This document shows positions 2,399 through 6,236 of a stretch of 35,150 nt of DNA, piece by piece. The DNA is from a virus, in IMG/VR virus record IMGVR_UViG_3300018405_000040, positions 1 to 35,150 of that record; one strand, 5' to 3'. Below the pieces are notes generated by a model. That model saw nothing but the letters and a program-made list of their open reading frames with translations, did not search any database and was not told the DNA's origin. The number at the start of each line of letters is the position of its first letter. The first letter of the stretch is position 1. Made by a program: the position numbers and the translations under genes.

Positions 2399-2663
2399 GG
2401 GATGCAGCGCGACGGGGCGGGGGCGCGGCGGTGCGACCGGGCGACCGGGCGAACGGGTCCCATCTGAGCCTTTTCGAGGGGTGCGGGGGCGCAGACTCGC
2501 GAGCTCGGACTACTTGCGAGATCCCGCATAGCGCCTCAAAAGGTTTTAATATCAACCACTTACGAGGGCGGCCCGGCCGTGTCGATTTTCTCGTTCGGCC
2601 AGGGGTTGGGCCTGAATTGGCTGGATGTTTTTCTAGGCACCTATCAAGGCAGTCGGTAAGTCA

Positions 2664-2693
2664 TTGAAACACAACGGAATACCCCTATATATT
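2664..2693 (+). promoter_or_regulatory. Candidate plus-strand promoter in the AT-rich island
   Basis: TTGAAA at 2664-2669 and TATATT at 2688-2693 are 18 bp apart. The hexamers fit sigma70, but the nearest downstream gene start is 640 bases away, so it would make a long leader or a non-coding transcript. AT-rich sequence gives such matches easily, hence the low confidence. Confidence 0.25.
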
Positions 2694-2714
2694 GTCTGAT
2701 TGTCTTATTGTCTT
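2691..2714. repeat. Three tandem 8-bp units (ATTGTCTG, ATTGTCTT, ATTGTCTT)
   Basis: Three adjacent copies of ATTGTCTK sit in the most AT-rich part of the intergenic region, followed by TAATAAATCC and an alternating TATATACATGTGTGTG stretch. The arrangement resembles a DNA-unwinding element or short iterons, though three 8-bp units is a small array. Confidence 0.6.
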
Positions 2715-2914
2715 AATAAATCCATATATACATGTGTGTGTGCCCGTGTGTGCGCTCGTCCCGCACATGTGTTTGATTTTCCGACGATCAGCCAAGCCAC
2801 AAATCGCCTCTTTTACCACTGGAAACAAGGACTTAAAACTGTCTGCAATCAAGACACCCCCAAAAACCGCGATTTTTCAGCGAAAAACCAACAACGCTGG
2901 CCGACGACGGCACT

Positions 2915-2973
2915 GTGACACCCGGATCCGCGTGTCACTTTTGCCGCTCGTGCGCCCGGATCCGCGTGTCACT
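2915..2973. promoter_or_regulatory. 24-bp near-palindrome and a 19-bp direct repeat; operator-like
   Basis: At 2915-2938 the arms GTGACAC and GTGTCAC flank a CGGATCCG core, with one mismatched base pair on either side of the core. Its right part, the 19-mer CCCGGATCCGCGTGTCACT, occurs at 2921-2939 and again exactly at 2955-2973, 34 bp later (close to three helical turns). The left arm of the second copy is poorly conserved. This is what a dimeric regulator or an initiator binding in tandem would need. A lone GTGTCAC half-site also lies at 2321-2327 in the ribosome binding site of the minus-strand gene. Confidence 0.55.
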
Positions 2974-3151
2974 GCACCCCCTGATCGAAACCCGTTTTCG
3001 CCGCCGAGCAACATGGCAGGGCGACCAATATTTTCTCCCCAGCCCCACCGTACCGCCCCATATGAGGCTGCAAATTCGCCCGAAAAAGGGGGCTATACCG
3101 CCCCAAAACGATCGGGTCTCCGGCCACCAGCATCCGGCCGACCACCGATGT

Positions 3152-3190
3152 TGATAAGAGACGCTTATCGAAGTGTGGGAAATCGATAAG
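3152..3190. promoter_or_regulatory. GATAAG inverted and direct repeats upstream of the primase operon
   Basis: TGATAAG (3152-3158) and CTTATCG (3164-3170) form an inverted repeat with a 5-base spacer, and CGATAAG follows at 3184-3190. More copies lie at 2371-2377, over the -10 of the minus-strand promoter, and just upstream of 3590 (AGATAAG). The pattern suggests an operator for a small regulator such as the DNA-binding protein encoded next door. No clear promoter hexamers were seen between here and 3333. Confidence 0.4.
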
Positions 3191-3332
3191 AAAAACCCAC
3201 TAGACAGGCGTCACGACCGCCCTGTTACCAACGTTCCCGCACGGAATAGCGAGAAACTGTGAGACAAACAGGGCGCCCCGTGGCAATATCAGGCCCGATT
3301 GCCCATCCAGATCTAGACAAGAGGACCCAAAG

Positions 3333-3569
3333 ATGACCGACGAAAGCCTTGACCCGCGAATAGAAGCGATGAAGACCCACCGAATGACCTGCCAGGAAGT
3401 GGCCGACCTCTTCGACGTTCACCGCCCGGCCATTTACCGCTGGATGAAGCAGGAGGAAGGGCCTTTCCCGCAGCCGAAAAAGCGCAGCCCTCGCCGCGTC
3501 TTCTGGTATGAGTACGATGTTCGGAAATGGGCCGAGCAACAGGGCATCACCCTCTCCGACTGCGTGTAA
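3333..3569 (+). CDS. Small AlpA/MerR-type HTH DNA-binding protein (78 aa)
   Basis: The ATG follows AGAGGA by eight bases. Residues 18-38 (MTCQEVADLFDVHRPAIYRWM) form a typical winged-helix-type HTH in which EVADLF..H...IYRW is characteristic of AlpA, excisionase and MerR-like phage regulators. The segment after it (GPFPQPKKRSPRRVFWYEYDVRKWAEQQG) matches the PxP...R..W...DV..W pattern of AlpA proteins. It lies immediately upstream of the primase-helicase gene and downstream of the repeat-rich region, so it probably regulates early transcription or takes part in replication initiation. With no integrase in view, a role as an excisionase is unlikely. Confidence 0.78.
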   Translation: MTDESLDPRIEAMKTHRMTCQEVADLFDVHRPAIYRWMKQEEGPFPQPKKRSPRRVFWYEYDVRKWAEQQGITLSDCV

Positions 3570-3629: not shown

Positions 3630-6236
3630 ATGACCAATTTTTTCAAGGAAATAGGTGCGCAGCTCATCGATAATGGCTTCCAGATTTTGCCTATCGTGGC
3701 TCATGACGCTGACCATCTATCCGCCGGCAAAGCCCCTGCATTGAAAGGCTGGCGCGAGTACAAACCAGACCATACCGATGTCCCGAAATGGGCCCGCAAG
3801 TACCCAAAAAACGGGATCGGCATCAACACCACGTATAACCCTGCAGTGGACATCGACGTGAAAGACCCGGATGGCGCGCAATATATGCGGACCTGGGTCG
3901 AGAACAACATCGGCCTCGCCCCTGTCCGAGTAGGGAACGCCCCGAAAACATTGCTCCTTTTCACCACGGACACCCCTTTTACTAAGGTGAAGTCGTCGGT
4001 TTGGGTGGAAGAGGACGGCACTGCGAAGGGTAAGCAACATGCCGTTGAGATCCTGGCCGACGGCGAGCAGTTTGTGGCCTATGGTATCCACCCCGACACC
4101 AAGAACCCCTACAAATGGGTGTCCATGGACGAGCCGGCGGACACTCACAGCGAGTTTGACCTGATCAAGCTGACCCTGACGGATGCCCGGGTTATCTGCG
4201 ACGAGTTCGACCGCTGGGCCAGCAAGAATACCAACTGGGTGAAGACTACCCGCCCGATGCGTGGCCGAGAGGCGGGCGGCGTGGATGACTGGGAGGAAGA
4301 CGATGAGGAAGGGATGGACGACACCGATCTTGCCGACGTCGCCCGACTGGTTTGGGAAGGGACCGAGCAAGAGCTGATCGACCTGCTAGACGAGATGCCG
4401 AACGAGGGTGGCTATGACGACTGGATCAGGGTGATCGCCGCCATCAAATCCGCCGAGCCCACCCCGGACGCTTACAAAGAGCTGGCCCGCGCTTGGTCAG
4501 AGAAAAGCGAGCTCCATGACGACATCTACTTCGAGGGTAAATGGGACGGCGGCCAGTTCCGGCGGCAGGTCGGCGATGTAGCGAACCTGAACACCATCGC
4601 CACCACCTGGAAAAAGGACCTGGAGCGGAAGGAGACCACCGAGCGGGTCAAGACCGACATCATCCCGGCTTTCCAGGCGGCCAGGACCATGGAAGAGTGG
4701 ATGGACGCCGCCGCGGCGCTGCGCCAAGCCGAGATCTTCGGGCTGACCCGGGAGATGGCAGAGAAAGCGGCGGTCACAGCCTTCAATGCGATCTCCGAAG
4801 TGAAGATGTCGGCCAAAGAGATCGGCAAGCACCTGAAATTTGACTGGTCACAGACCGAAGCGCCGGCATGGCTGGAGCCCTGGGTCTACCTGGGCGCCCG
4901 CGATGTGATGTTCAACCGCCAGACCGGAGCAGAGCGAACCAGCAAGGCATTCGATAACGAGTTTGCCCCCCTGGCCGCCGAAGCGGGCGCCACGCCCATG
5001 ATATTCGCCCGCAAACTGCGGCCGGTCCCTGCGGTCGAAAACATCGCATACCGCCCCATAATGCACGGCGAAATGCCAGGGAACCGCCGGGGTGAATACC
5101 TGGAAAACGACGACCCCGCCTTCTTCATGGACCGCGGTCGCTGGTACCTCAACTCGTTCGACCCGGCGAGCATTCCTGAGATGCCGGAGGAGATGACCAA
5201 GAAAGACCGGCAGGCCGCCGCCACCGTGGAGCAGTATTTCAACGTCCAGATCCCGGACCCGATCGAGCGAAACCACTTCCTGGACTGGATGAGCTACGTC
5301 ATGCAGAACCCCGGTCACCGCATCAATTACGCGGCGGTGGTCATCGGCGGTGAGGGCTCGGGCAAAACCATCCTCAAGGTGATGGTGGAGCACCTGCTGG
5401 GCCGGCCCAACGTGGAGACGGTATCGAACGAGATCATCCACAAGTCGTTCAACTACTGGGCCGAGGGCGCCATCGTCAAAGTGATCGAGGAGCTATCAGC
5501 AGCAGACGGCGGCGGCGGTTATGACCTCGTCAACAAGTTGAAAGAGCCGATCGCGAACGACACCCTCCACATCGAACGGAAAGGGCGAGATGGTCTGCAG
5601 GTGCACAACACCGCCTCCTGGCTGGCCTACACCAACGACGTGGCAGCCATCCCGGTAGACAGCGGCTCCCGCCGATTCCTGGTAGTCACCTCCAGGTTCC
5701 GGCACCAGGATGAAGTCCTGGCCTACACGGCCGATCACCCGACCTTCTTCTCCGACTTCGAGAAGGCTTTCACCGACCGACCCGGTGCCGTGCGCAAATG
5801 GTTCGCGGACAGGAAGCGAGACCCCGCTTTCAACCCAACCGGCCACGCGCCCGTGACCAACTCGAAAAACGACATGGTCCTGGCCACCCAGTCCAACTTC
5901 ACGCAGACCCTGCTGGAGGCGATCCAGGTAGAGAACATCCCCGGGATCACCGCCGAGCTGATCTGCACCTCGCACATCCACGAGCTCGGCACGGACCTGA
6001 CACCCCGCCGACTGGCCAGGACGATGTCCCAACTGGGCTACTACCCAATCCAGCCCGGGAAACAGACGAAAGTCATGGTCAACGGGGTGCGGGGCACGGT
6101 CTACGCGAAAAACCCGAAAGAGTGGCTGGACGCGGAGAAGCAACCCTGGAACAAGAAGATCTGGGCGCATTTCAAATACCAGATGAAGAAGCTGGAGGAA
6201 GAGGGAAACCACTGGGAGGATGTGGACGACCTGTAA
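3630..6236 (+). CDS. Bifunctional primase-polymerase / SF3-type helicase (868 aa)
   Basis: Probably primes and unwinds DNA at the phage origin. An N-terminal Prim-Pol-like domain shows VDIDVKD at residues 73-79 (metal-binding Asp74 and Asp76) and GIHPDTKNPYKW at 142-153. A PriCT-like stretch follows at about 240-310 (LLDEMPNEGGYDDWIRVIAAIKS). The C-terminal helicase/DUF5906-type ATPase has Walker A GGEGSGKT at 573-580, an acidic Walker B-like VIKVIEELSAAD-type strand (seen as IVKVIEELSAAD) and a TND motif followed by SGSRRFLVV. I chose the ATG at 3630, which has GGAG eight bases upstream; a GTG at 3591 has its only purine-rich stretch too close. The protein ends in the acidic tail WEDVDDL and is followed by a terminator. 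Confidence 0.88.
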   Translation: MTNFFKEIGAQLIDNGFQILPIVAHDADHLSAGKAPALKGWREYKPDHTDVPKWARKYPKNGIGINTTYNPAVDIDVKDPDGAQYMRTWVENNIGLAPVRVGNAPKTLLLFTTDTPFTKVKSSVWVEEDGTAKGKQHAVEILADGEQFVAYGIHPDTKNPYKWVSMDEPADTHSEFDLIKLTLTDARVICDEFDRWASKNTNWVKTTRPMRGREAGGVDDWEEDDEEGMDDTDLADVARLVWEGTEQELIDLLDEMPNEGGYDDWIRVIAAIKSAEPTPDAYKELARAWSEKSELHDDIYFEGKWDGGQFRRQVGDVANLNTIATTWKKDLERKETTERVKTDIIPAFQAARTMEEWMDAAAALRQAEIFGLTREMAEKAAVTAFNAISEVKMSAKEIGKHLKFDWSQTEAPAWLEPWVYLGARDVMFNRQTGAERTSKAFDNEFAPLAAEAGATPMIFARKLRPVPAVENIAYRPIMHGEMPGNRRGEYLENDDPAFFMDRGRWYLNSFDPASIPEMPEEMTKKDRQAAATVEQYFNVQIPDPIERNHFLDWMSYVMQNPGHRINYAAVVIGGEGSGKTILKVMVEHLLGRPNVETVSNEIIHKSFNYWAEGAIVKVIEELSAADGGGGYDLVNKLKEPIANDTLHIERKGRDGLQVHNTASWLAYTNDVAAIPVDSGSRRFLVVTSRFRHQDEVLAYTADHPTFFSDFEKAFTDRPGAVRKWFADRKRDPAFNPTGHAPVTNSKNDMVLATQSNFTQTLLEAIQVENIPGITAELICTSHIHELGTDLTPRRLARTMSQLGYYPIQPGKQTKVMVNGVRGTVYAKNPKEWLDAEKQPWNKKIWAHFKYQMKKLEEEGNHWEDVDDL

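Follow-up and report, generated by a model that had tools for sequence, protein, structure and literature searches.

P4 alpha and ORF904 of pRN1 use winged-helix-type domains, as described in the passages retrieved from PMC4234260, and the genome of Salmonella phage chi ends in 12-base overhangs, GGTGCGCAGAGC (PMC4342425). In the portions of the literature reached by a text search, no replication origin of chi-like phages was found. The DNA analyzed here, called the window throughout, is a virus record of 35,150 bases, and all counts for the record refer to this partial genome. Judged by its genes, the virus is a relative of the chi-like Aeromonas phages (Casjensviridae), related to Salmonella phage chi: it carries the chi-like set of primase-helicase, DUF2800 exonuclease, Enc34-like SSB, family-A polymerase, helicase, and GpA terminase. 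When the primase was compared with 50,697 phage records by tblastn, 421 matched, the best being Aeromonas phage 13AC503A (87.8%), followed by other Aeromonas Casjensviridae at 51–58%; among the matches listed, enterobacterial genera reached 35–42%. A search for more close relatives by alignment of the primase yielded 10 loci, all of them viral, and nothing from genome_contigs, and alignment of the AlpA-like protein led only to one known phage and to locus L132, the latter being judged unrelated from its sequence and ORFs.

The cos-proximal non-coding kilobase of this chi-like phage contains a pair of dyads with the consensus GTGACACGCGGATCCGCGTGTCAC, the centers of which are 34 bp apart (Table 1). 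Site 1 is laid out as GTGACACCCGGATCCGCGTGTCAC, with 7-base arms, CGGATCCG at the center and one unpaired position per side, and is the top-scoring gapless palindrome of the window. In site 2, the left arm is degenerate (6/8 mismatched). The 19-mer at 2921–2939 is present in two exact copies spaced by 34 bp, and both coordinates and sequence of palindrome and second copy agree with the earlier note. Its view that symmetry and repeat are unlikely by chance was borne out: an equally good gapless palindrome arose in 3 of 1000 dinucleotide shuffles of 2530–3332, an exact direct repeat of at least 19 bases within 100 bp in none of 1000 (longest, 12), and the 19-mer with up to three mismatches occurs in the window only as the two copies and the palindrome's own reverse match, with 0.02 expected. 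Because of these shuffles and mismatch counts, chance is ruled out as the source of palindrome and repeat. GGATCCGNGTGTCAC is confined to the element within the record. The further GTGTCAC half that had been pointed out at 2321 is present, but at chance level and without conservation in 13AC503A. GTGTCAC and GTGACAC together occur five times in the window, three times inside the element, and simple arithmetic predicts that a 7-mer will occur about four times in 35 kb when both strands are counted; the 13AC503A locus contains no GTGTCAC, and its copies of GTGACAC lie elsewhere.

Table 1. Features of the cos-proximal region and the adjacent genes (positions in the window)
Feature	Position	Strand	Remarks
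cosN-like 12-mer GGGGCGCAGACT	2486..2497	+	aligned with chi overhang GGTGCGCAGAGC, 9/12; 2480–2500 identical at 21/21 in 13AC503A
IHF-consensus match TATCAACCACTTA	2550..2562	+	no second such match in the window; distance to cosN ~64 bp
AT-rich, then GT-alternating block; possible unwinding region	2690..2777	.	80/88 identical in 13AC503A
Site 1, 24-bp palindrome GTGACACcCGGATCCGcGTGTCAC	2915..2938	.	11/12 pairs complementary
Stretch between conserved parts, including inner right arm of site 1	2932..2954	.	length kept; 5/23 identical in 13AC503A
Site 2, core and right arm CCCGGATCCGCGTGTCACT	2955..2973	.	exact copy of 2921–2939
AlpA-like HTH protein, 78 aa; candidate binder	3333..3569	+	Pfam HTH_17, Phage_AlpA; 91% identical in 13AC503A
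Prim-Pol/DUF5906 primase-helicase	3633..6236	+	start codon from alignment with relatives
Primase C-terminal winged-helix-like domain (predicted); candidate binder	5895..6125	+	AlphaFold model; co-variation unfavorable

At the same place, 13AC503A has GTGACACGCGGATCCGCaagcagc and, 34 bp further, GTGACACGCaGATCCGCGTGTCAt. Identity to the window is 17/18 for 2914–2931 and 15/19 for 2955–2973, compared with a background of 236/456 (~52%) over 2778–3270 minus both sites, which gives binomial tails of 0.0001 and 0.014, respectively. Three of the four arms are kept in each phage: in the window, site 1 is complete and site 2 retains its right arm, and in 13AC503A, site 2 is complete and site 1 retains its left arm. 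A different inner arm has thus been lost in each, which matches the expectation for a pair of sites bound by dimers. The non-coding kilobase itself found 13AC503A as its sole match, and the 66-base element retrieved from the phage records 13AC503A and five weak, chance-like records. The earlier note had considered absence from close relatives, or many copies, as signs against the motif; instead, it stands at the same position in 13AC503A and within the record it is limited to the element. The paired dyad is a real yet fairly ordinary cis element. It is conserved and most likely a protein-binding site that would suit a dimeric DNA-binding protein, as had been proposed. The motif is missing from most of the relatives scanned, as would befit a product of chance or a functionless relic, but the islands of conservation and the kept spacing in 13AC503A as well as the shuffles make this explanation improbable. 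In wider searches, the exact full palindrome was absent from genome_contigs (84,980 species), and a host operator is therefore unlikely. Viral contigs yielded no match for an 18-mer and none for a strict degenerate palindrome; the 14-base core matched there 94 times in a chance-like manner, always with at least four mismatches to the consensus and with no second copy seen. Plasmids contained no match to the element.

A consensus scan of the window and 22 loci with up to seven mismatches retrieved, beyond the window and 13AC503A, sites in JC01 and L112 (five mismatches each); matches in Kokobel and Saba at seven mismatches fall inside the primase gene, and the dyad of SLP22 is eight mismatches away from the consensus. 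JC01 and SLP22 are annotated as Jacunavirus, and L112 was assigned by similarity. In JC01 and L112, the related 24-bp dyad is 518–546 bp away from the cos end; the primase stop precedes it by 2 (JC01), 9 (L112), and 1 (SLP22) bases. It adjoins the end of the primase gene with no AlpA gene there, and cos, AT-rich stretch, and dyad follow one another as in the window. A tuned pattern matched 3 of 15 records at up to three mismatches (JC01, L112, and 13AC503A, cos-proximal sites only) and its reversed control none, a result that is partly circular because the pattern had been adjusted after JC01 and L112 were seen. In an untuned control on the loci of 14 relatives (199 kb), 2.3% of 300 shuffled palindromic consensuses matched once at up to five mismatches; two such matches were obtained with the real consensus and with 0 of the 300 shuffled palindromes. 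In 18 records (1.06 Mb), the 17-base half-site with at most one mismatch picked out only the 13AC503A pair and the cos-proximal site of JC01. When three mismatches were allowed, five unrelated places were added (G003, Kokobel twice, Smarc1, and Stilesk), and the reversed control matched once in each of two records. The 10-base core GCGGATCCGC occurs at seven places in the 18 records, three of which are the cos-proximal sites. The link between the window dyad and the Jacunavirus-type sites is suggestive, not proven. A different cos-proximal sequence, GCAGATCAnAGGTTTA (one base varying), is common to Cronobacter phage JC01 and Aeromonas phages C4 and A034, which are otherwise far apart.

From cos onwards, the window presents the IHF match, the AT/GT block, the dyads, 360 bp, the AlpA-like gene and the primase gene, with the dyads ~430 bp inside the cos-like end and past the conserved AT/GT-rich block. 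Four of 13 other regions, some of which stop short of cos, have a match to WATCAANNNNTTR, which we take to be the IHF consensus, at an offset of 58–65. In 13AC503A, a run of N is found at the cos-like site (locus L001, ~6070–6181, just before that site), where the window reads through. A CATAnCGCC-like motif at 2527–2545 near cos returns ~560 bp further on (3091–3105), and it is doubled in C4 and BUCT552 too, at ~410 bp. At the place of 2690–2777, the alternation is of the GT type in BUCT552 and of the AC type in C4 and A034, so that alternation and not sequence may be what is conserved. The dyads could conceivably be an accessory packaging site recognized by the terminase complex within an extended cos region: they are on the same side of cos at a distance of roughly 420–525 bp in the window, 13AC503A, and JC01, and they share the kilobase with the cos-like 12-mer and the IHF match. 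We regard this as improbable. The IHF match and a CATAGCnCC motif are situated within ~80 bp of cosN also in phages devoid of the dyads (partly by eye), the known cos functions of lambda fit into ~200 bp, and small terminase subunits are 55–65% identical across phages with different palindromes.

Even less probable is a hairpin in RNA or single-stranded DNA, that is, a terminator or a stem-loop origin like that of pRN1. The outer arms (2915–2930 and 2957–2972) can pair around a 26-nt loop, the folding z scores are −2.9 (window) and −3.9 (13AC503A), and TTTT follows site 1. The predicted folds differ, however, between window and 13AC503A, and the long conserved stem-loop typical of pRN1 was not found. 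Furthermore, 13AC503A has an intact site that is not followed by TTTT, the terminator scan did not report the element as an intrinsic terminator, and JC01 has a separate terminator-like stem beside its dyad (by eye).

A more serious though still unlikely alternative is an operator pair for a phage regulator, either the AlpA-like or the HTH/HNH protein, with two dimers on the dyads setting early transcription towards the AlpA and primase genes. The dyad is of operator size, and twofold symmetry over 24 bp, two sites, a fixed spacing, and conservation of the symmetric site in relatives are all traits of the dyad operators of dimeric HTH regulators. The AlpA-like gene starts ~360 bp downstream. 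Its product retains the VHRPAIYRWM helix in 13AC503A and is only 42–44% identical in BUCT552 and C4, which possess other palindromes; among Aeromonas phages, the helix varies with the palindrome. Contrary to such operators, no promoter was found at the window sites: a sigma-70 scan gave a single match, 2664–2693, at chance level (1 found, 0.7 expected; phage promoters may differ), and none that overlaps the dyads. The Jacunavirus phages, with their related dyad at the primase gene end, encode a different kind of small HTH protein in place of the AlpA-like one. As for the HTH/HNH gene, its ORF (1564–2529) comprises 321 aa, with homology to relatives only from residue ~92, and alignment suggests that the true start is probably near 2255 and not at the first ATG, which places the gene far from the dyads (~650 bp from the element). 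The earlier suggestion of a regulator acting in both directions did not hold, given the chance-level, unconserved copy at 2321, these distances to both gene starts, and the lack of a promoter-like overlap. Control of the Dam/SeqA type via the central GATC was rejected, as GATC is not enriched in the window region (7 seen, 5.9 expected). In BUCT552, the region between cos and primase (L099:3552–4235) has 14 GATC sites in 684 bp where 4.9 are expected, and no denser cluster was found in that genome.

We favor the paired dyad as a replication-origin element over an AlpA-like operator, with a probability of roughly 0.45. A phage protein would bind both dyads, the three intact arms anchoring two dimers, and the dyads may, with less certainty, belong to the phage replication origin. 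The bound complex would help to open the nearby conserved AT/GT block, and opening would allow loading and priming by the primase-helicase encoded just downstream. An AT-rich stretch (2676–2735, by eye) adjoins the dyads, as is the case in iteron origins, and the Prim-Pol/DUF5906 gene is adjacent. Two findings stand against an origin: BUCT552 and C4 lack the motif although their primases (57% and 51%) are closer than that of JC01 (41%), and the element is not a classical iteron array, because the window region has only two dyads and no repeated k-mer above shuffles. An initiator site for the Prim-Pol helicase had been raised in the earlier note as an alternative; it has become the leading reading, except that the primase's own winged helix is a doubtful partner. 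Divergence of the primase is faster towards its C-terminus, where the last ~115 residues share 44% identity with BUCT552, compared with 61% for the remainder. AlphaFold modeled 180 residues with a mean pLDDT of 76 and ten-residue blocks of 82–93 over residues 71–170. A PDB fold search gave no significant match for this domain, and Pfam reported nothing there; the P4 origin-binding domain was absent among the fold matches, which is no evidence against a winged-helix fold. The predicted recognition helix, PRRLARTMSQ, is much like PRRIARIMSQ in BUCT552, where the palindrome is different, and unlike SDSRVASRLS in JC01, where the dyad core is similar, and for this reason co-variation argues against the primase winged helix as the specific binder.

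Several other lineages have repeats of their own. Among 15 regions from the cos side that were screened for k-mers repeated above shuffles, CCCTAAG occurs nine times in Smarc1, GTTACAA eight times in iEPS5 and six times in Stilesk, and GGTAACA six times in Smarc5, each on the cos side of the primase gene, and ACACACT/CACACTA four to five times in three Jacunavirus-type regions. Weaker, low-complexity, or palindrome-derived repeats were noted in BUCT552, C4, A18P4, 13AC503A, PM87, and Saba, and in the window region and Kokobel, all k-mers of 6–9 bases stayed within the 95% maximum of the shuffles. The iteron-like repeats of Smarc1, iEPS5, Smarc5, and Stilesk surround AT-rich stretches and are putative origins in chi-like phages. 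In the equivalent interval, a 34-bp palindrome, AAAACTGCAATAATCG-nn-CGATCATTGCAGTTTT, is found in BUCT552 and AVP3 (L099:3913–3946 and L106:362–395, respectively); it is stronger than that of the window, with arms 94% complementary, a 2-nt gap and a third arm 180 bp upstream. Kinship of the half-site with ACAGATCAGCGTGTTACA of BUCT552 (three mismatches) was set aside, as ACAGATCAGCGTGTTACA is more like an IHF-type repeat. Repeats or palindromes peculiar to each lineage fit an origin with changing sites, and operators could give the same pattern. More tentatively, the Casjensviridae may possess a common layout beside a Prim-Pol helicase gene, consisting of cos, a site like that of IHF, an AT-rich stretch, and sites for the initiator, with the sequence of these last sites exchanged completely between genera (TTAGGGC, GGTTACAA, ACACACT, and palindromes), the double dyad of the window being one version. 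If this were true, the family would amount to a series of natural switches in origin specificity. Should the element belong to an origin, the start of phage replication by a Prim-Pol helicase could be mapped at a small and conserved target, and the chi-like family would provide a comparison set of changing sites.

The origin of P4 with its initiator alpha and the iteron origins of plasmids resemble the window in having repeated sites in a non-coding AT-rich stretch beside a primase-helicase gene, the product of which has a C-terminal winged-helix-like domain (passages of PMC4234260 and general knowledge). They differ in that they contain an array of direct repeats and the window two dyads; moreover, the window primase is of the Prim-Pol type and not TOPRIM as in P4 alpha, and its winged helix, predicted without a significant fold match, is only a candidate binder disfavored by co-variation. 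The pRN1 replicon (orf56/orf904) needs a downstream stem-loop of ~100 nt, whereas the window has two short dyads, the pairing of which is not conserved and which are placed upstream of the operon. Its likeness to the window, according to the same passages of PMC4234260, consists in a gene for a small DNA-binding protein followed by that for a Prim-Pol/helicase/winged-helix protein and in an origin located in adjacent non-coding DNA; the Jacunavirus dyad, too, lies directly after the primase stop.
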